A stretch of DNA of 57,262 bases from a bacterium. Its GTDB lineage: Bacteria > Elusimicrobiota > Elusimicrobia > Elusimicrobiales > UBA9959. Positions 33,612 through 41,222 of the stretch are shown here, one piece after another. The notes under the pieces are model-generated. The model was not told the DNA's origin. It searched no databases and was given only the letters and a program-made list of their open reading frames with translations. The stretch's first letter is position 1. Each line of letters begins with the position of its first letter. The translations under genes and the position numbers were made by a program. The stretch spans positions 1-57,262 of the forward strand of contig JAJZRA010000006.1 in NCBI GenBank assembly GCA_021847485.1, in the 5' to 3' direction.

Positions 33612-34574
33612 CTAGCGCCCCGCCACGGAGACTTTCCTCTCCCCTTTGACGCCGCCGGCCTCGGTAAGGCCCTCCACGTAAGCGTTGTACCGCGTCTGCA
33701 CCGGCTTACCGGGGCCGAGGCCGCCGGGGGCGAGGACGCTCTTTACGAAGCCGGAGTTCACGGGGAAAGCGGTCACCAGGTAGGCGCGCTTGAGGGCGGA
33801 ATCGTAGACGGAATAGACCAGCAGGTGAGTGTTGCCGCCGGCCGGCGCCTTGAACGGCACCAGGTCGGTGCGCAGCGCTACCTTGCGCCCGCCGGCCAGC
33901 GAGACCTCCTCGGTCAGCCTGGAGCGCTTCACCGGGCGCGAAGCGTAGGCCCGCGCGGCGGCGCCGCAATAAGGCAGCATGCGCGCGAGCAGGCCGGAGG
34001 CCGCGGGATCGTCCTTCAGGGCTATGCCGCCGGCCACGCAAGTGACGTTGGCCAGCAGCGTGCCTTCGGCCGGGGCCGGGCCGAGAAGCCCGCGCGGCAG
34101 GCCCAGGCCCTGCTCTATGTCGGGGCGCACCCAGCGGGCGCGCTTGAAGCCGAACTTGGTCGGCAGCAGGCTGAAGAGGTAGCCGTAGGTATGCTCCATG
34201 CCGGCGTGCGCGTAGCGCCCGCGCGGCTGGGGCGCGCCCAGCCTGGAGGCGAGGAAAGAAAGCACGCCCGGCTCCACTATGGTGCCGCGGGCCAGCTCGT
34301 CGAAATTTATGCTTTCGCCCCAGAGCCGCAGCACCGGGGTGGGCCTGTCGGCGTCCAGCTGCCGGAGCAGGCCGGGGGCGTAGGCGGCGAAGACCGGCTC
34401 CAGCGCCTCGTGGCGGTCAGCCTTCTCATCCAGCAGGCGCGCCACGCCGGCCCAGGGGCAGTCCTCGGCGGTCTCGGCGGCGGCCGCGCCGGGCGCGGCC
34501 TTGGCGGGACAGTCCGGGACCGCGGCGGGGGCGGCCGCGGGGCACAGCAGCAGCGCCAGCAGCAGCGCGCGCAT
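33612..34574 (-). CDS. secreted protein of unknown function
   Basis: The 320-residue product has a signal peptide (MRALLLALLLCPAAAPA). The mature part has Cys pairs (VPDCPAK, EDCPW, VTCVAGG, LPYCG) suggesting disulfides, and no recognised domain. Its ATG overlaps the stop of the preceding lipoprotein gene (TGATG), so they are translated together. Confidence 0.7.
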   Translation of the reverse strand: MRALLLALLLCPAAAPAAVPDCPAKAAPGAAAAETAEDCPWAGVARLLDEKADRHEALEPVFAAYAPGLLRQLDADRPTPVLRLWGESINFDELARGTIVEPGVLSFLASRLGAPQPRGRYAHAGMEHTYGYLFSLLPTKFGFKRARWVRPDIEQGLGLPRGLLGPAPAEGTLLANVTCVAGGIALKDDPAASGLLARMLPYCGAAARAYASRPVKRSRLTEEVSLAGGRKVALRTDLVPFKAPAGGNTHLLVYSVYDSALKRAYLVTAFPVNSGFVKSVLAPGGLGPGKPVQTRYNAYVEGLTEAGGVKGERKVSVAGR

Positions 34575-34879
34575 CAGGCCAGTCTCCGGAAATCCGCGCG
34601 GCTCACGGTATAATAGCGCGTCCCGCAGGGGTAGCCGGGGTAGGGGCCGCAGGAGCCGTCGCCGTTCTTGGCCGGGGCGGTGCTGGTGTTAACGGAATTG
34701 GCGATATCCTGCAGGGTCTGGGGCTTGGGCTGCGTCTCGGCCGCCTTCTGGGACCTGAAGCAGGCCGCCAGCGAGGCCAGGCCGAAAGCCAGCAGTCCCA
34801 GCACGCCGAACCTGGCGATCCTGTTGACCTCCGGCCTGTTCAGGCCGGCCTTGGTCCCGAGCTCGTAAAGTTTTTTCAT
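34574..34879 (-). CDS. putative lipoprotein
   Basis: The 101-residue protein has a 24-residue basic leader, a hydrophobic helix (FGVLGLLAFGLASLAAC) and a LAAC lipobox-like end, then a polar, Pro/Thr-rich tail with a Cys pair (GSCGPYPGYPCG). GAGGGGAGGAGCC precedes the ATG. A TAGAAT lies near 34904-34909. The leader is long for a lipoprotein, so a membrane anchor is the alternative. Function unknown. Confidence 0.65.
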   Translation of the reverse strand: MKKLYELGTKAGLNRPEVNRIARFGVLGLLAFGLASLAACFRSQKAAETQPKPQTLQDIANSVNTSTAPAKNGDGSCGPYPGYPCGTRYYTVSRADFRRLA

Positions 34880-34978: not shown

Positions 34979-35164
34979 TTACTTGCCCTTCTTCTCGGTG
35001 GCCGGGGCCGGGGTGGCGGCCGGGGTAGCGGCCGGGGCGGCGGTCTCGACGGCGGTGCCGGCGACCTGCTCGGTGGCGGCAGGGGCGGCGGCCTCCTGCT
35101 TCTTGCAGGCGACGGCGAAGGTCAGGGCGACGACGGGCAGCGCGAACAGTACTATCTTCTTCAT
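34979..35164 (-). CDS. small Ala/Pro-rich lipoprotein
   Basis: The start is ATG 35164 (MKKIVLFALPVVALTFAVAC), with AGGAGAAACC upstream. The 61-residue product has a lipobox (FAVAC, Cys20), then an Ala/Pro/Thr-rich unstructured tail ending in KKGK. Such tails are seen in envelope spacers. A nine-base hairpin (35187-35195 with 35202-35210) lies in the leader and may stabilise the mRNA. TATAAT at 35274-35279 could be its promoter. Confidence 0.7.
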   Translation of the reverse strand: MKKIVLFALPVVALTFAVACKKQEAAAPAATEQVAGTAVETAAPAATPAATPAPATEKKGK

Positions 35165-35306: not shown

Positions 35307-36281
35307 TCAGGCGCCGCGGGCCCGCAGGGCCGCGGCCCGCAGCGACCAGGCCAGCGCGGTGGCGGCCGTAAAGACCTCCGGCGCGCCTTCGGCCGGCCCC
35401 GGGCCGGGCGGCTCGGCGGCGCCGGCCAGCGCGGCCGCGGTCAGGGCGCGGCCTGCGGCCAGGGCGGCGGCGAAGGCCTCGTCGCGCCCCGCGCCGCGCT
35501 CCAGCCCGGCCGCGTAAGCGGCGGCCAGCCGGCCCTGCAGCCGCCACGAGACCAGCCGCGCGCAGGCGGCCGCCTCCGGAGAAGGGCGTTCTTCGTTCTC
35601 CTGCTCCAGCGCGAACCAGGCCAGGGCGGCCGGGGCGCTGACCAGCGCCTCCTCCAGCGCGGCGGCCGGGGCGCCCGCCGCGCCGGTGAGCGTCCTTACG
35701 GTCCGTTCCAGGCCGGCGGCGCAGAGCTCGTCGGCCGGCACGGCCAGCCCCTCGTCGAGCAGGCGCCGCCTGAAGGCGCAGGCCAGCGCGGCCCGCTCCC
35801 CTTCGCGCCTGACGGCCCGCACGCGCAGCGCCGGCCGGTGCGGCTGGCAGAGGAACTCCTCCGGCGGGGCCGCGTCGAAGCCGGCCTCGTCGAGCAGTTC
35901 GAGCAGCAGGTCCTTGGGGAAGCAGTAGACGTGGCCCATCCCCGGCGTTTCCGAGCCGTAGACCCAGCCGAGGGCGGCCTCGCGCGCCGCGGCGTCCCCG
36001 GCGAGGAAGATCTCGAAGGTCCGCTCGATATGCGGGGTCTCCAGCAGCAGGGCGCCGCCCGGCGCCAGCACGCGGCGGCATTCGGACAGGAAATACTTGG
36101 CCTTGAAGAAGCCGAGGTGCTCTATCAGGTGCGCCGCGCGCGCCTCGGAGACGGAGCCGGCCGGGAAGTCCAGGTCGTGGGCTGGCATCAGCCGGTCCGC
36201 GGCCGAATCGGGGGCGGCGTCCAGGTTGAGCCAGCCGTCGAGGCGCTCGTAGCCGCAGCCGAGGTTCAGTTTATACTTCAT
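35307..36281 (-). CDS. SAM-dependent methyltransferase, last gene of the UbiUV-like operon
   Basis: Residues 1-110 are a class I methyltransferase: YKLNLGCGYE (SAM loop), LNLDAA, HDLDF, LIEHLGF and RVLAPGGALLLETP. From residue of about 160 the protein is an Ala-rich helical extension of unknown role. Its start overlaps the end of the second UbiV-like gene by 11 bases, so they are co-translated. The substrate is not evident; a small molecule processed by the operon is plausible. Confidence 0.85.
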   Translation of the reverse strand: MKYKLNLGCGYERLDGWLNLDAAPDSAADRLMPAHDLDFPAGSVSEARAAHLIEHLGFFKAKYFLSECRRVLAPGGALLLETPHIERTFEIFLAGDAAAREAALGWVYGSETPGMGHVYCFPKDLLLELLDEAGFDAAPPEEFLCQPHRPALRVRAVRREGERAALACAFRRRLLDEGLAVPADELCAAGLERTVRTLTGAAGAPAAALEEALVSAPAALAWFALEQENEERPSPEAAACARLVSWRLQGRLAAAYAAGLERGAGRDEAFAAALAAGRALTAAALAGAAEPPGPGPAEGAPEVFTAATALAWSLRAAALRARGA

Positions 36282-36954
36282 TCTTCGCCGCCGGCGGAGT
36301 GAAGACGTTGCGGGCTGCCGCCCCGCGCGGCCCCTGCCCTTTTACGAAATAGGCGCAGCCGCGCAGCCACAGCGGCTTCGGCACGCGCGGGCTGACGAAG
36401 CGGCGGGCCCGCCCCAGGCAGGAGCGCCCGCAGCTCTCCGCCCACCTGTTCTCCCACGGGCAGAAGCGCGTGACGGTGGCGTAGCGGAACGGGTAATGCC
36501 AGGAGAGGGGCAGCCCGTAAGGCTCGAGCCGGCCGATAACGGCCGCGTCGTCCACCTCGAAGCCGGAGATCCGGTACCTGGCCAGGAAGCCGCGCGCGTA
36601 GTCCTCCGGCATGATCTTCACGCGGTGCGCCAGGATGCGCCCGCAGGAGACCTTTATCCCGCGGCGGCGGCGCAGCGTCTCCAGCAGGCCCAGGTCATTG
36701 GCGATCACCTCCAGCCCGCCGCCGCGGGAGAGGACGGGCAGCAGCTTCTTCACCCGGCCGAGGGCCGCTTCGGTGAGCAGCCCGGTGGCGAGCGTTATCC
36801 TGCCTTTGAAGGCCCGCCTCAGCGCGGCCGCCTCAGCCGGGGACGGCAGCAGGTTGGCGCAGAATTCAGAGCCGGCCACGACGGCGCTCAGCCCGCGCGG
36901 CAGCGCGCCGACGGCCTCCGGCGAACAGGTCTCCAGGGCTAACGCCTTTTCCAT
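36271..36954 (-). CDS. UbiV-like U32-family Fe-S protein, copy 2
   Basis: The start is ATG 36954, preceded by GAGGAACGC; the product has 227 residues. It parallels the UbiV plan: a strand ending in VVAGSEFCANL (first Cys), ALGRVKKLLP, LEVIANDLGLLETL, and RFCPWENRWAESCGRSC with three more Cys. UbiV binds a 4Fe-4S cluster with four Cys in the same order and works with UbiU in O2-independent hydroxylation. It overlaps copy 2 of the UbiU-like gene by 16 bases. It is a paralogue of the gene at 37781 (shared RFCPWE, CG, CLG and EFCxN). The family placement is by pattern, not by search. Confidence 0.75.
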   Translation of the reverse strand: MEKALALETCSPEAVGALPRGLSAVVAGSEFCANLLPSPAEAAALRRAFKGRITLATGLLTEAALGRVKKLLPVLSRGGGLEVIANDLGLLETLRRRRGIKVSCGRILAHRVKIMPEDYARGFLARYRISGFEVDDAAVIGRLEPYGLPLSWHYPFRYATVTRFCPWENRWAESCGRSCLGRARRFVSPRVPKPLWLRGCAYFVKGQGPRGAAARNVFTPPAAKNEV

Positions 36955-37784
36955 GCGTTCCTCGCGTGCCGCGACACCGTGAAATAGAGCTGTTCCCCCA
37001 GCCTGGCGAACTCCTCCCGGTCGCGGACCTTCTCCAGCAGCTTCGTCATGATCCTGGCGAATTTGAAGACCTCGAGTTCCTCGGAGAAATCGTTCATGCG
37101 GATGATCTTGAGGTACTGCGCGCCGCTGTGGTGGAAGCCGTGCACCGCGCGCATCTTCTCCCGCGCCGGGGCCTCCGGCATGCGGTAGCGGCCGCCGGGA
37201 CCCCTGTAGGGGAACCGGCAGGTCTGGTCCCTGTGCGTCAGGTTCCACAGGCGGCAGGCCGGGTCCACGTTGGCGCAGCAGAAATCGGCGTGGAAGAAAA
37301 CCTCCGTCTCGAGACCGTAGGGGTTGGCTATCAGCGGCGCGGCCTCGGAAGGCAGCAGGTGGAAAGGCAGCACCACGCGCGACGCGCCCAGCTCGCGGTA
37401 GCGCTTCATCGCCGGCAGGTTGAAGCAGAGCGCCAGGCTGCTGACCGTCAGCCGGGCCTTAAGGCCGAGGCCGCAGAGGGCCTCCAGCATCGGGGTCTCG
37501 CGCACGATGCAGGCGCCCAGGCCGGCCTCGTCCAGTTCCTCGGCGGCGGAAAGCGTCCTGCGGGCCCTGGCCCCGAAGGAAGGCTGGTTGACGAGCAGCG
37601 AGAAGCGGCGGCCCATCCCGGCGGCGAGGACCACGGCCGCCTTGAGCTCGTCCATGGTCTGGAAGGACTGCGCCGGCAGGCGGTGGTTGGGCACCGCGGC
37701 GAGGCCGCCGTAGAGTTCGTCGGCCCCGAGGCGCAGCATCGTCTCGGCCTCGCGGTAGGTCTTAACGCCGACTACCGTCTTCAC
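36939..37784 (-). CDS. UbiU-like U32-family Fe-S protein, copy 2
   Basis: The start is GTG 37784, whose GTGA overlaps the stop of the UbiV-like gene upstream. The 281-residue product begins KTVVGVKTYREAETMLRLGADELYGG and is a U32-type TIM-barrel. The hallmark is EVFFHADFCCANVDPACRL followed by CRFPY: four Cys in the place where U32 proteins bind an Fe-S cluster. It is a clear paralogue of the gene at 38485. U32 enzymes include UbiU, RlhA and TrhP, which hydroxylate or modify substrates without O2. Substrate unknown. Confidence 0.78.
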   Translation of the reverse strand: MKTVVGVKTYREAETMLRLGADELYGGLAAVPNHRLPAQSFQTMDELKAAVVLAAGMGRRFSLLVNQPSFGARARRTLSAAEELDEAGLGACIVRETPMLEALCGLGLKARLTVSSLALCFNLPAMKRYRELGASRVVLPFHLLPSEAAPLIANPYGLETEVFFHADFCCANVDPACRLWNLTHRDQTCRFPYRGPGGRYRMPEAPAREKMRAVHGFHHSGAQYLKIIRMNDFSEELEVFKFARIMTKLLEKVRDREEFARLGEQLYFTVSRHARNAWKRR

Positions 37785-38488
37785 GCGGCCTCCGGGGCGG
37801 GCAGCGGCTCGCCGACCAGCCGGTCTATCGCCGGGTGGCGGGGCGGCCGGCCGGTCCTGACGCCGTAGGCCTGCCCCTTGAGCAGCAGCGGGGCCGGCAG
37901 GCGCGGGTGCTCGAGCTTCCTGACGGCGCCCAGGCAGGCGTAGCCGCAGGGCCCCTGCCAGCGCCGCTCCCAAGGGCAGAAGCGCGTGACCGAAAGATAG
38001 CGGAAAGGGGTGTGGAAAGAATACTTCAGGCCGAAGCCCTCGAAACGCGGCAGCAGCGCGGGGTCGTCGAGCTCAACGCGGCGCACGCCGTGCTCCTTCA
38101 GGAAGCCGCGGGCGAAACCGCGGGGCATCACCTTGACCCGGTGCATGAAGACGCGCCCCAGCGAAGGGCGCACGCTCCGGGCCCAGCGGGCGCGGGCCGC
38201 GTGCAGCAGGCCGAGGTCGTTGACGACCAGCTCCAGCGGCCGGCGGGGCGAGGCGTGGGCTTCGACTATCTCCTCCACCGAGTCGAAGGCGGCGTCGGTC
38301 AGCAGCGGCGTCACCAGGACCACGCGGCCGCCGAAAGCGTCCACGGCGCAGGCGAAATCGTCGGGGGACGGCACGAGGTTCTGGCAGAACTCGTCGCCGA
38401 GGTAGAGCAGGTCCAGGCCCCGGCGCGCCCGCGCGGGCGCGGCCCGGAAGGCCGGGGCGGACAGCTGCAGCGCCTTCTCCGCGGTCAT
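37781..38488 (-). CDS. UbiV-like U32-family Fe-S protein, copy 1
   Basis: The 235-residue product has LLYLGDEFCQNLVPSPDDF (first Cys, residue 35), LELVVNDLGLLHAARAR and SVTRFCPWERRW, then PCGYACLG. E. coli UbiV has its first cluster Cys after the same VIYLGEAVC pattern and three further Cys spaced x12 and x3; here the spacing is x9 and x3. The ATG overlaps the stop of the UbiU-like gene by four bases (ATGA). It is shorter than UbiV (about 290 residues), lacking much of the C-terminus. Confidence 0.75.
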   Translation of the reverse strand: MTAEKALQLSAPAFRAAPARARRGLDLLYLGDEFCQNLVPSPDDFACAVDAFGGRVVLVTPLLTDAAFDSVEEIVEAHASPRRPLELVVNDLGLLHAARARWARSVRPSLGRVFMHRVKVMPRGFARGFLKEHGVRRVELDDPALLPRFEGFGLKYSFHTPFRYLSVTRFCPWERRWQGPCGYACLGAVRKLEHPRLPAPLLLKGQAYGVRTGRPPRHPAIDRLVGEPLPAPEAA

Positions 38489-39324
38489 CCGCCGGTCCTC
38501 CCGCCGTGGCGGCTCACCGAGAAATAGAGCTTCTCCCCGAGCTTGCGGAACTCCCCGCGGGAGACGCCCTTCTCCAGCAGGGCCAGCATGACCCGGGCCT
38601 CCTTAAGCACTTCCTGCTGGTCCCTGAAATCGTTCACGCGGATGATCTTGAGGTATTTCACCCCGGCGTGGAAGGTGTCGTAGACCTGGTCCAGCTTCTG
38701 CGGCACGTCGGCCTCGGGCATGCGGTGCGGCCGCCCGCCGCAGGTGTACGGGAAGCGGCAGACCTGGAAGGCCTTCAGCCAGCCGTCCAGCCGGCAGGCC
38801 GGGTCCATGTTGGGACAGCAGAAGTCGGCGTGGAAGAAGGCCTCGGTCTCCATGCCGTAACGGTTGTTCACCAGGCGCCCGGCCTCGGAAGGCTGCAGGT
38901 GGAAGGGCAGGATCACGCGCTTCACGCCCAGCCCCCGGTAATAGTCCAGCGCGCGGGAATTGAAGACGAGCGACAGGCTGCTTATTATGAAGTCGGCCTT
39001 CACGCCGCGCGCGCGCAGGTAGTGCAGCAGCGGCAGCTCGCGGATGATGACCGGCACCCGGCAGGCCTTCAGGATGGCCTTCACGCGGGCGGCCACGGAC
39101 GGGTAGCTGTCCTCGAAGCAGGCTTCGTTGACCGCCAGCAGCGCGCGTTTGCCCCGGGCGCGGGCCATGAGGGCGATGCGCACGAACTCGGCGTCGTCCT
39201 TCAGGCACTGGTCCTCGTCGCGGTGGTTGGGCAGGCCGGGCACGCCGCAGTAGACCTCGGCCGCGCCGTTGGCGAGCAGCCACTCGGCTTCTTCGTAAGC
39301 TTTGGAGCCCGCCACTATCAGCAT
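38485..39324 (-). CDS. UbiU-like U32-family Fe-S protein, copy 1
   Basis: The 279-residue product begins MLIVAGSKAYEEAEWLLANG and has EAFFHADFCCPNMDPACRL and VCRFPYTCGG, the same four-Cys pattern as copy 2. It is shorter than UbiU (about 330 residues) and lacks the extra C-terminal region. TAGAAT at 39331-39336 lies six bases before the ATG, giving the pair its own leaderless promoter inside the operon. Downstream genes overlap one another by 4-16 bases. Confidence 0.78.
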   Translation of the reverse strand: MLIVAGSKAYEEAEWLLANGAAEVYCGVPGLPNHRDEDQCLKDDAEFVRIALMARARGKRALLAVNEACFEDSYPSVAARVKAILKACRVPVIIRELPLLHYLRARGVKADFIISSLSLVFNSRALDYYRGLGVKRVILPFHLQPSEAGRLVNNRYGMETEAFFHADFCCPNMDPACRLDGWLKAFQVCRFPYTCGGRPHRMPEADVPQKLDQVYDTFHAGVKYLKIIRVNDFRDQQEVLKEARVMLALLEKGVSRGEFRKLGEKLYFSVSRHGGRTGG

Positions 39325-39330
39325 AGGGAT

Positions 39331-39336
39331 ATTCTA
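39331..39336 (-). promoter_or_regulatory. internal -10 before the first UbiU-like gene
   Basis: TAGAAT on the minus strand lies six bases before the ATG at 39324, between the radical SAM gene and the UbiU-like gene. Confidence 0.6.
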
Positions 39337-39343
39337 TGAAAAA

Positions 39344-40492
39344 TCAGCCGCGCCTGCCGGAGAAGATCCGGCCCAGGCGGCCCAGCCCGCGCGGGACGCC
39401 GAGCCCCGCCAGCCTCAGCCGCAGCCGGCCGAACGGGGAGGCCAGTTCCTCCCTGAACAGCTCCCGCTCGACGCTGCGGAAGCAGTAGGGATCGTTGTGC
39501 AGGCGGCCGGTCTTCATCAGCGACATCTCGCTGCAGCCGCCGCCGCACGCGGAAACGTGCTCGCAGGCGGCGCATTCCGGGCCGGCCTGGTCCGGCGTGA
39601 AGGCCCGGGCGTAGCGGAAGGCGGCCGGGTCGTTCCAGATGGCGGCGAAGGCGCGCTCCCGCACGTTCCCTTCCACGAACGCCTCGTCGTTGATGGCGAG
39701 GCAGCCCAGCACGCCGCCGTCGCTCCTGACCCCGGCCACCGAGACGCCGGCCTGGCAGCCTTCCCACTTTTCGTAGAGCGAAACGTTCTTGAGCAGCAGC
39801 GAATGGTAGCCCAGGTCGTGGGCGCCTATCACCGGCAGGACCTCCGGGGGGTACTCCCTGCGGCAGGCTTCGACGAAAAGGCCGACGGAATAGAACTCCT
39901 CCTTGTCGAGCAGCAGGCCGCGCGAGAAGCGCCCTCCCTCCGCGCCCGCCGTCTGCACCTGCCAGGCGATGCCCCGCCCCTTCAGCAGGTCCCTCAGGGC
40001 CGGCAGTTCCTTTATATTCAGCCGGTGGACGGTGGTGATGACGCTGACCGGCAGGCCCTCTTCCAGGCAGCGCGCTATGAAGGCGGAGGCCTTGGCGAAA
40101 GCGCCGGGCACGCCGCGGATCCGGTCGTGCAGGCCGGGGTCGGCCGCGTCGAGGCTTACGGCCACGGCCCGAGGCGAGAGGGCTTTCAGGCGGGCGAAGA
40201 CGTCCTCCCCGCCCACGGTGCCGTTGGTGATGACCGAGAGCTCCATGCCGAGCTCCCGCACCCGGGACGCGATAGCGAAGAAATCCTTCCGCAACAGCGG
40301 TTCGCCCCCCATCAGCGCCACGCCGCGCACGCCGGCCCGCGCGAAGTCGGCGCAGAGCGCCAGCGCCTCCTCCGGGGACAGCTCGGCCGCGCGCCGGCCG
40401 CCGGCGGTGGAGCCGCAGTGCAGGCACTTGAGGTTGCAGGCCAGGGTCAGCTCCCAGACCACGCAGGCGGGAGTTAAATTCCTATTTTCCAC
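39344..40492 (-). CDS. radical SAM/SPASM enzyme
   Basis: The 382-residue protein has the radical SAM motif CNLKCLHC (about residues 19-26), the GGEPL loop and a C-terminal SPASM-like Cys cluster (CAACEHVSACGGGC, then PYC). SPASM enzymes often modify peptides or cofactors. The start is GTG 40492, overlapping tlyA by 11 bases with no clear ribosome site, so translation is coupled. It sits directly before two UbiU/UbiV-like pairs, suggesting one pathway. Confidence 0.88.
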   Translation of the reverse strand: MENRNLTPACVVWELTLACNLKCLHCGSTAGGRRAAELSPEEALALCADFARAGVRGVALMGGEPLLRKDFFAIASRVRELGMELSVITNGTVGGEDVFARLKALSPRAVAVSLDAADPGLHDRIRGVPGAFAKASAFIARCLEEGLPVSVITTVHRLNIKELPALRDLLKGRGIAWQVQTAGAEGGRFSRGLLLDKEEFYSVGLFVEACRREYPPEVLPVIGAHDLGYHSLLLKNVSLYEKWEGCQAGVSVAGVRSDGGVLGCLAINDEAFVEGNVRERAFAAIWNDPAAFRYARAFTPDQAGPECAACEHVSACGGGCSEMSLMKTGRLHNDPYCFRSVERELFREELASPFGRLRLRLAGLGVPRGLGRLGRIFSGRRG

Positions 40493-41222
40493 TTTTTTTG
40501 AGATGCCACAGGAACTCCAGGTTCCCCTTGGCCCCCTTTATAGGGGAATCCGCGAGCCCCAGCTCGGTCACGCCGGGCAGGCTCTCCGCGAGGAAAGCCC
40601 TCATTCCGTCCATCACCTTCAGGCGGGTCTCCTCGTCCTTGACGATGCCGCGCCGCAGGTCCTGCGGCTGCAGCTCGAACTGGGGCTTCACCAGCGCGAG
40701 GATCTCGCCGCCCGGGGCCAGCGCGTCCGCCACCGGGCCCAGGATCAGCTTGAGCGAGATGAAAGAGACGTCTATCGCGCAGAGGTCCGGCTTTTCCGGG
40801 AAGGCGTCCGGCTTTAGAAAGCGCGCGTTGGTGCGCGGCATGAAGACGACGCGCGGGTCGCTCTTGATCCGCTCGTGGATCTGGCCCTCGCCCACGTCCA
40901 CGGCGTAGACCCGGGCCGCGCCGGCCTGCAGGAAGCAGTCGGTGAAGCCGCCGGTGGCCACGCCGACGTCCAGGCAGACGCGCCCCTTAGCCGCCACGCC
41001 GAAAGCGTCCAGCGCCCCCTTGAGCTTCAGCCCGCCGCGCGAGACGTAGGGGCACTCGTCGCGGACCAGCGCCAGCTCGTCGTCGTCCTTCACCGGCTGG
41101 CCGGCCTTGTCGGCCGGCCGGCCGTTGACGGTGACCAGCCCGGCCATGATCGCGCGCAGGGCCTTCTCGCGGGTCTCGAAAAGGCCGCGCTCCACGCAGG
41201 CCACGTCCAGGCGCGTCTTCAT
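40482..41222 (-). CDS. tlyA: TlyA-family rRNA 2'-O-methyltransferase
   Basis: The 246-residue protein has an N-terminal S4 RNA-binding domain (KTRLDVACVERGLFETREKA, then VTVNGRPADK) and an FtsJ-type methyltransferase (CLDVGVATGGFTDCFLQAGA, IDVSFISL, LVKPQFE). TlyA methylates cytidines of 16S and 23S rRNA. A TAACAT lies six bases before the ATG. It overlaps the radical SAM gene, so it may be first in the UbiUV-like operon or merely fused to it. Confidence 0.9.
   Translation of the reverse strand: MKTRLDVACVERGLFETREKALRAIMAGLVTVNGRPADKAGQPVKDDDELALVRDECPYVSRGGLKLKGALDAFGVAAKGRVCLDVGVATGGFTDCFLQAGAARVYAVDVGEGQIHERIKSDPRVVFMPRTNARFLKPDAFPEKPDLCAIDVSFISLKLILGPVADALAPGGEILALVKPQFELQPQDLRRGIVKDEETRLKVMDGMRAFLAESLPGVTELGLADSPIKGAKGNLEFLWHLKKSGK

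Follow-up and report, generated by a model that had tools for sequence, protein, structure and literature searches.

Tandem UbiU/UbiV-like pairs of an Elusimicrobia operon as predicted oxygen-independent hydroxylases of radical SAM-rich loci

The window examined here, a stretch of 57,262 nucleotides, is contig C118 of an Elusimicrobia metagenome-assembled genome (MAG) of 2.2 Mb and 83% completeness, and Elusimicrobia MAGs are its nearest named records. Its minus strand carries an operon in the order TlyA, RS (a radical S-adenosylmethionine [SAM]/SPASM enzyme), U1, V1, U2, V2 and MT (a methyltransferase), in which the U and V proteins resemble UbiU and UbiV, respectively. We hold with moderate confidence that U and V of each pair form a heterodimeric Fe-S enzyme of the U32 type, which acts like UbiU/UbiV as an oxygen-independent ring hydroxylase and serves as a tailoring module for radical SAM pathways. 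The pair would hydroxylate an aromatic ring without O2, with prephenate as the probable oxygen source, and such modules would have been recruited repeatedly into radical SAM-rich biosynthetic loci of Elusimicrobia, the tandem duplication in the window supplying two pairs that could hydroxylate one product twice, either in succession or at specific positions. As substrate, we favour a peptide-borne or small aromatic group, ahead of ubiquinone or RNA.

The two tandem pairs had been described in an earlier note made from the sequence alone, and all the genes that it named were recovered on the minus strand where it had placed them (Table 1). The gene overlaps of 4 to 16 bases on which it relied are also present (TlyA/RS, 11; U1/V1, 4; V1/U2, 4; U2/V2, 16; V2/MT, 11); in the run from TlyA to MT, only RS and U1 do not overlap, being 19 bases apart. 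U2 starts with a GTG at 37784 and in this way overlaps the V1 stop. U1 and U2, which are 47% identical, both exceed the Pfam cut-off of the U32 family (22.4 bits; Table 1) and, as first noticed, contain FCCPNMDPAC and FCCANVDPAC, respectively, each with CRFPY. Furthermore, the U family profile matched UbiU at 99.8% (E value of 3.7e-30), so that, judged by sequence, U is clearly a UbiU/U32 homologue. With the UbiU model NF047963, the U proteins reached 37.7 and 27.6 bits versus a cut-off of 440, in agreement with the earlier view that the pairs are not the ubiquinone enzymes themselves. In particular, U1 C170, C177, and C189 correspond to the UbiU ligands C169, C176, and C232; C177 and C189 are present in all 57 U sequences and C170 in 36 of them, and C169, adjoining C170, may stand in as the fourth ligand, which is a guess. 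The predicted model of U1 has an overall predicted local distance difference test (pLDDT) score of 82.7, and Foldseek ranked the U32 structure 5d88 second with it (E value of 4.5e-6), amid many other TIM barrels, a result that supports the modelled fold and not the function. Among the sequences of solved structures, the U profile matched only 5d88 (E value of 0.9).

The kinship of V is more distant. Neither V1 nor V2 matched any Pfam or NCBIfam model at an E value of ≤ 0.1, and none of 28 V family members matched any NCBIfam model at ≤ 0.01, including the UbiV model NF047965 (cut-off, 275). When a profile of 28 V sequences was compared with one of nine UbiV sequences (Escherichia coli K-12 and eight plasmid records), the match was 90.1% (E value of 1.6e-6) over 157 columns, and that with UbiU was 74.7% (E value of 2.6e-5) over a shorter stretch. 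V1 and V2 both contain the EFCxN, RFCPWE, and CGxxC motifs of the earlier note, and V1 C35, C171, C181, and C185 align, all four in register, to UbiV C39, C180, C193, and C197, which are reported as cluster ligands proven by mutation (PMC6747719, in excerpt). The spacing is C-Xn-C-X9-C-X3-C in V versus C-Xn-C-X12-C-X3-C in UbiV; C35 and C171 occur in 57/57 sequences, C181 and C185 in 55/57 each, and all four together in 54/57. The AlphaFold model of V1 is confident (pLDDT of 94), and the one match of the V profile among solved-structure sequences is weak and unrelated. We take V to be a distant, shortened UbiV-type U32 protein with C35, C171, C181, and C185 as candidate 4Fe-4S ligands. The description of the proteins as UbiU/UbiV-type, shorter, and duplicated is supported; of the fold comparisons that the earlier note had proposed, that of U1 gave the match to 5d88, and the Foldseek search with V1 was uninformative.

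The two families also travel together. A U gene adjoins 38 of the 39 V clusters examined, the sole exception lying at a contig end, and the U and V trees are mirrored (r = 0.85 over 57 adjacent pairs, with 0/2000 permutations as high), a correlation to which genome relatedness contributes. Pairing is thus conserved in relatives, and adjacency and mirrored trees are indirect signs of a putative heterodimer of U and V. The copies of each tandem set group together in both trees, with ultrafast bootstrap values for U and V, respectively, of 83 and 84 for T1 (the set of the window operon), 78 and 81 for T2, and 100 and 100 for T3 (L046 and L099 to L101), so that the pair was probably duplicated as a unit three times. 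T2 comprises the type of the second, diverged set (U3V3U4V4), which lies on contig C101 of the same genome as the window, and the single pair of G007, which falls on the U3/V3 side. According to our reading of the search and the gene listings, T1 occurs in 7 of 81 genomes, with all four genes in 6 of them, the G029 contig breaking off within V1; T2 is found in 6 of the same 7 genomes. In the cluster, neighbourhood, and tree counts, duplicate copies of loci from two collections were skipped; the second pair of G025, missed by the gene caller, was left out of the trees, and the low-GC loci L058, L059, L061, L092, L096, and L097, poorly served by our home-made gene caller, show few genes. In G025, a V domain was also seen within an 815-amino-acid (aa) open reading frame (ORF) (L115:327-2774).

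The linkage to radical SAM enzymes, which the earlier note had drawn from the SPASM gene of the operon, extends to the U-V family. A radical SAM gene lies within 5 kb of 29/39 V clusters, with at least two in 20 and at least three in 12, while at most 13.5% of the window's own genome lies within 5 kb of such a gene (49 matches); without the six T1 rows, the figure is 25/33. In G014, two pairs stand amid eight radical SAM genes, radical SAM genes accompany the T2 orthologues of G030, G021, and G005, and a B12-binding one comes after the single pair of G007. The surroundings of the T2 orthologues are also what would recommend a role of the pairs in tailoring a sugar or surface-polysaccharide building block, since a DegT aminotransferase and a DUF3473 polysaccharide deacetylase are nearby in G005 and G030, and short-chain dehydrogenase/reductase and methyltransferase genes in G005; we regard this as quite unlikely, given that the targets of known U32 hydroxylases are rings or bases and that no sugar enzyme is found among the seven operon proteins scanned. 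At L052, neighbours of 468, 279, and 469 aa had been considered NifDKH-like by length, a candidate rejected by Pfam, which identifies those of 468 and 469 aa as B12-binding radical SAM proteins and gives no match for that of 279 aa; a methyltransferase and a phosphodiesterase family protein are encoded beside them. Radical SAM superclusters were also observed in G000, with 12 matches in 24 kb on C43 (L119 and L120) and 6 in 9 kb on C5 (L121).

In three loci outside Elusimicrobia, each from a different phylum (L061, L053, and L056; Table 1), quinohemoprotein amine dehydrogenase (QHNDH) genes occur alongside a V-U pair. In L061 and L053, QhpA and QhpC exceed the respective NCBIfam cut-offs, and the best matches to QhpB (105 and 173 bits) are below the cut-off of 223, those to QhpD (446 and 414 bits; 372 in L056) below that of 453, and that to QhpE in L053 (162.9 bits) just below that of 165; QhpA, QhpC, and QhpB of L056 are our own reading of its ORFs. 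All three loci continue with an ABC transporter gene. QhpG is described as a flavin adenine dinucleotide (FAD) enzyme dihydroxylating peptidyl tryptophan with O2 (PMC7876137, in excerpt); tblastn with the QhpG-like flavoproteins of L163 and L164 as queries did not reveal it in any of the three stretches. The qhp loci of Paracoccus (L163) and Leisingera (L164), in turn, encode a flavoprotein called QhpG-like from its position and its FAD/Trp_halogenase matches, without U or V, and that of Novosphingobium (L165) has neither V-U nor a QhpG-like gene. V was the criterion by which L061, L053, and L056 were found, which leaves the lack of QhpG as the only informative point; its simplest reading is that V-U would perform QhpG's step without O2. 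Identity across the families is low, with 32% between the window V and that of L053 (172 columns) and 26% between the window U and that of L061 (182 columns); in a plasmid collection, the Aneurinibacillus V matched a single record (Roseburia), and QhpD-like proteins occur in 47. Desulfosporosinus (L058:1942-3882 and L059) was further seen to have V-U pairs that are relatives of the qhp-locus ones, with QhpD not in the stretch. The operon of the window is itself not a qhp locus, in that none of its proteins scored with QhpA or QhpC. The term U32 is absent from the QHNDH literature retrieved among openly licensed PubMed Central papers, and the qhpX of PMC5023235 is, in the excerpt, a plasmid-table entry.

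How far the pairs belong with the genes around them is a separate matter. Both RS domains exceed the Pfam cut-offs (Table 1), and the best NCBIfam match, TIGR03913, reached 186 bits, far below its cut-off of 591.75; among the best 25 of 77 NCBIfam matches, the top two are peptide-maturase models and the next heme-pathway ones, all of these below their cut-offs, and QhpD is absent. RS is present in at least 30 of 81 genomes, including its own, a lower bound because many genomes were scored for 24 candidates only, and the others are 57 to 81% identical to it. In 20 further RS loci, RS adjoins MT in 15 and shares the stretch with TlyA in 11, and a U or V gene is found in none. The RS-UVUV-MT arrangement occurs in G000, G012, G025, and G021, so that the SPASM-U32-U32 order, for which the earlier note proposed a neighbourhood search, does recur, in G012, G025, and G021, but not in those 20 loci. 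In G029, RS and MT are neighbours on one contig, and the U-V set is on another. G030 and G005 retain the U1V1U2V2 set; no RS orthologue was found in G030 at an E value of ≤ 1e-30, and G005 (a genome only 81% complete) gave a 31% match only, while the closest MT of G030 is 34% identical over 155 residues and G005 has no close MT. In the RS tree, the carriers of the U-V set are not one clade, G021 pairing with G027, which is without T1. From the RS-MT unit without the set in relatives and from the split carriers, it follows that the set was inserted into, or lost from, an older operon; we suggest that it came between RS and MT. Co-transcription of the set with RS and MT is likely, and obligatory dependence is not; the four-gene set with RS and MT as one conserved unit was rejected as the default. 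The set is real and conserved, and the operon itself does not define a new pathway.

The proposal of the earlier note that SPASM enzyme, methyltransferase, and pairs form one dedicated pathway is not supported, as RS stands beside MT without pairs in 15 of the 20 loci and G030 and G005 keep the pairs without an RS orthologue or close MT. Its most concrete form involves the 101-aa ORF encoded two genes downstream of MT, with a lipoprotein-like N terminus, a variable linker, and the C-terminal CGPYPGYPCGTRYYTV, whose product is a possible substrate of RS and MT: RS would alter the CGPYPGYPCGTRYYTV end (e.g., by a cross-link), U-V would hydroxylate its tyrosines, and MT would methylate it. The position of the pairs between RS and MT in four genomes and the overlapping genes of the window speak for such a scheme, as do the near invariance of this end, including its Cys and Tyr residues, across 20 aligned sequences and the qhp loci, in which a SPASM enzyme, a V-U pair, and a peptide substrate are combined. 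We nevertheless consider it unlikely. The ORF occurs in 19 of 26 related loci irrespective of the pairs, with an end that looks the same in both cases, and it was not found in L066 (G030), L070 (G005), and L072, which are loci without RS, a point weakened by its absence also from four RS-bearing stretches (L147, L149, L151, and L158, of which L151 ends soon after MT). Moreover, a promoter-like site (35300-35273) and two terminator-like hairpins, one just after MT and one at 34962-34933 ahead of the ORF, lie between MT and the ORF, which is therefore probably transcribed apart; this slightly lowered our estimate for the scheme. The 101-aa ORF has no match among solved structures. The terminator that the earlier note saw after MT does exist as a hairpin with a T run, but such sites are, as a class, no more frequent than expected by chance (7 found versus 4.2 ± 2.4 in shuffled sequences). 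The small lipoprotein-like ORF that follows MT, whose start is probably an inner ATG at 35164, is likewise probably a separate unit, given the promoter-like site between it and MT.

As regards the oxygen donor, prephenate is reported in this role in anaerobic ubiquinone synthesis (review PMC11574389, in excerpt). A single CM_2-type chorismate mutase was found in the window's own genome, where it shares a contig with the second set, about 7 kb from it. Prephenate dehydratase was found in none of 61 genomes (46 of high quality), and a search for prephenate dehydrogenase, confined to the window's own genome, found none; all 14 control genomes score for both enzymes. Prephenate is therefore probably made in this genome without a recognised amino-acid use, unrecognised dehydratases being possible; its possible users are the U-V pairs and a single long U32 protein, which scores best with TrhP, under the model cut-off. 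By eye, the chorismate mutase was seen among genes read as shikimate-pathway genes beside the second U-V-U-V set (L006:5983-12366).

A role in hydroxylating an isoprenoid quinone, as in UbiUV, would suit the closest characterised relatives of the pairs and the two UbiA-type matches over cut-off in the genome. The scores far below the UbiU cut-off, the V family without a UbiV match, and the fact that genomes hold several diverged pairs, with radical SAM, aminotransferase, and deacetylase genes beside them, make this very unlikely in our view; in addition, no SCP2 (UbiT) domain is present among the seven operon proteins scanned, and the best UbiA match resembles MenA (below cut-offs, in a gene cut by the contig start), so that a naphthoquinone is likelier than ubiquinone. 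At L160:6054-12449, we also observed MfnB-like and isopentenyl phosphate kinase-like proteins (both below cut-offs), a polyprenyl synthase-like protein, a UbiA-type match, and two radical SAM genes. Least probable of all is that the pairs hydroxylate RNA in the manner of TrhP or RlhA and are linked to TlyA. All 26 members of the U family tested score weakly with the TrhP model, yet TrhP and RlhA are longer single proteins that are not known to have a V partner, and the genome holds the separate long U32 protein just mentioned. RNA as a substrate had been suggested in the earlier note by TlyA, which is its only evidence; TlyA and RS adjoin in relatives without the pairs, and in G030 TlyA overlaps U1.

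What the sequences show directly is homology, cysteine conservation, pairing, duplication, RS-MT without the set, and the radical SAM neighbourhood, whereas the Fe-S cluster, heterodimer, hydroxylation, use of prephenate, class of substrate, and direction of the insertion are inferences. Several observations weigh against the hydroxylase proposal that we prefer. The third UbiU ligand, C193, has no counterpart in U1, which accordingly lacks the full set of four UbiU ligands; C169, the candidate replacement, is present in only 16 of 57 U sequences, and the U1 model has a pLDDT of <50 at residues 166 to 183 and 185 to 191, i.e., in the cysteine region. V is about 60 residues shorter than UbiV, its profile matched the single E. 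coli UbiV sequence at only 8.3% (5.2% for the single E. coli UbiU), and Foldseek with V1 returned nothing at an E value of ≤ 1e-3, only weak TIM-barrel matches. T1 and T2 are moderately supported in the trees (78 to 84), and the V tree does not recover one half of T3 as a clade. The genomes that contributed the 39 V clusters are related to one another, and these are the clusters fetched rather than every match; their radical SAM neighbours were scored with home-made profiles. The qhp comparison covers six loci, three of them found via V, and its QhpG search covered locus stretches rather than whole genomes. Finally, the long TrhP-like U32 protein could be the user of prephenate.

Table 1. Positions of the operon genes, downstream features, and V-U-bearing qhp loci
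Feature	Position	Strand	Basis or remark
tlyA, rRNA 2'-O-methyltransferase family	40482..41222	-	TIGR00478, 221 bits (cut-off, 185.8)
RS, radical SAM/SPASM enzyme	39344..40492	-	PF04055, 94.5 bits; PF13186, 33.4 bits
U1, UbiU-like U32 protein	38485..39324	-	PF01136, 34.4 bits
Candidate cluster ligands of U1: C169/C170, C177, C189	38485..39324	-	Alignment to UbiU
V1, UbiV-like partner	37781..38488	-	Profile comparison with UbiV; no hidden Markov model (HMM) match
U2, second UbiU-like protein	36939..37784	-	PF01136, 37.1 bits
V2, second UbiV-like partner	36271..36954	-	46% identity to V1; no HMM match
MT, class I SAM methyltransferase with long C-terminal part	35307..36281	-	PF08241, 22.3 bits (cut-off, 21.2)
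Terminator-like hairpin and T run, 3' of MT	35257-35234	-	Sequence scan
Small lipoprotein-like ORF	34979..35164	-	tblastn matches in 16/26 related loci
101-aa lipoprotein/precursor-like ORF, C-terminal CGPYPGYPCGTRYYTV	34574..34879	-	Present in 19/26 related loci
qhp locus with V-U, Aneurinibacillus thermoaerophilus	L061:3300-12221		
qhp locus with V-U, Nitrospinota MAG	L053:50-12628		
qhp locus with V-U, Syntrophobacteraceae MAG	L056:509-9423		

Anaerobic ubiquinone synthesis and RNA modification are the settings in which U32 hydroxylases have been characterised, and the mechanism of these enzymes is given as not yet established (PMC11574389, in excerpt); the pairs are not treated in the openly licensed PubMed Central literature that was retrieved, partly in excerpt, on Elusimicrobia radical SAM clusters, U32 proteins, and qhp. 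Small, repeatedly duplicated pairs apparently beyond the ubiquinone and RNA roles would widen U32 chemistry. It is tempting to hypothesize, with clearly less confidence than for the hydroxylase proposal itself, that the V-U family at large comprises O2-independent hydroxylases acting on aromatic residues in radical SAM-modified peptides and small molecules, which in some bacteria would replace QhpG for cysteine tryptophylquinone formation, the four-gene sets of Elusimicrobia putting two hydroxyls on one product and chorismate mutase being kept for prephenate. In the qhp loci the peptide substrate is defined and the product known, which makes them suited to a test; the UbiUV substrates, by contrast, are described as hydrophobic and not commercial (PMC6747719, in excerpt). 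If V-U replaces QhpG, such a test would also show how tryptophylquinone could form without O2.

Compared with UbiU/UbiV of E. coli (PMC6747719, in excerpt), the window pairs share a U32-type U, a distant V partner, adjacent genes, and the V cysteine pattern, and U1 has three of the four UbiU ligands, the third being missing; they differ in being tandem, in scoring far below the cut-offs, in their shorter V, and in the lack of a UbiT domain among the operon proteins scanned. The V-U pairs of the qhp loci belong to the same families and likewise have a SPASM-type radical SAM gene in the locus, but their proteins are longer, V precedes U, the pair is single, and qhp genes accompany it. TrhP and RlhA, for which prephenate dependence is reported (PMC11574389, in excerpt), share the U32 family with the window U, whose score to TrhP is weak. 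QhpG, an O2-requiring flavoprotein (PMC7876137, in excerpt) in which no relation to U32 was seen, perhaps carries out the step in qhp loci that V-U would perform. Among these systems, the U-V set is a variant of the U32 hydroxylase kind, the function of which is testable in the qhp loci.

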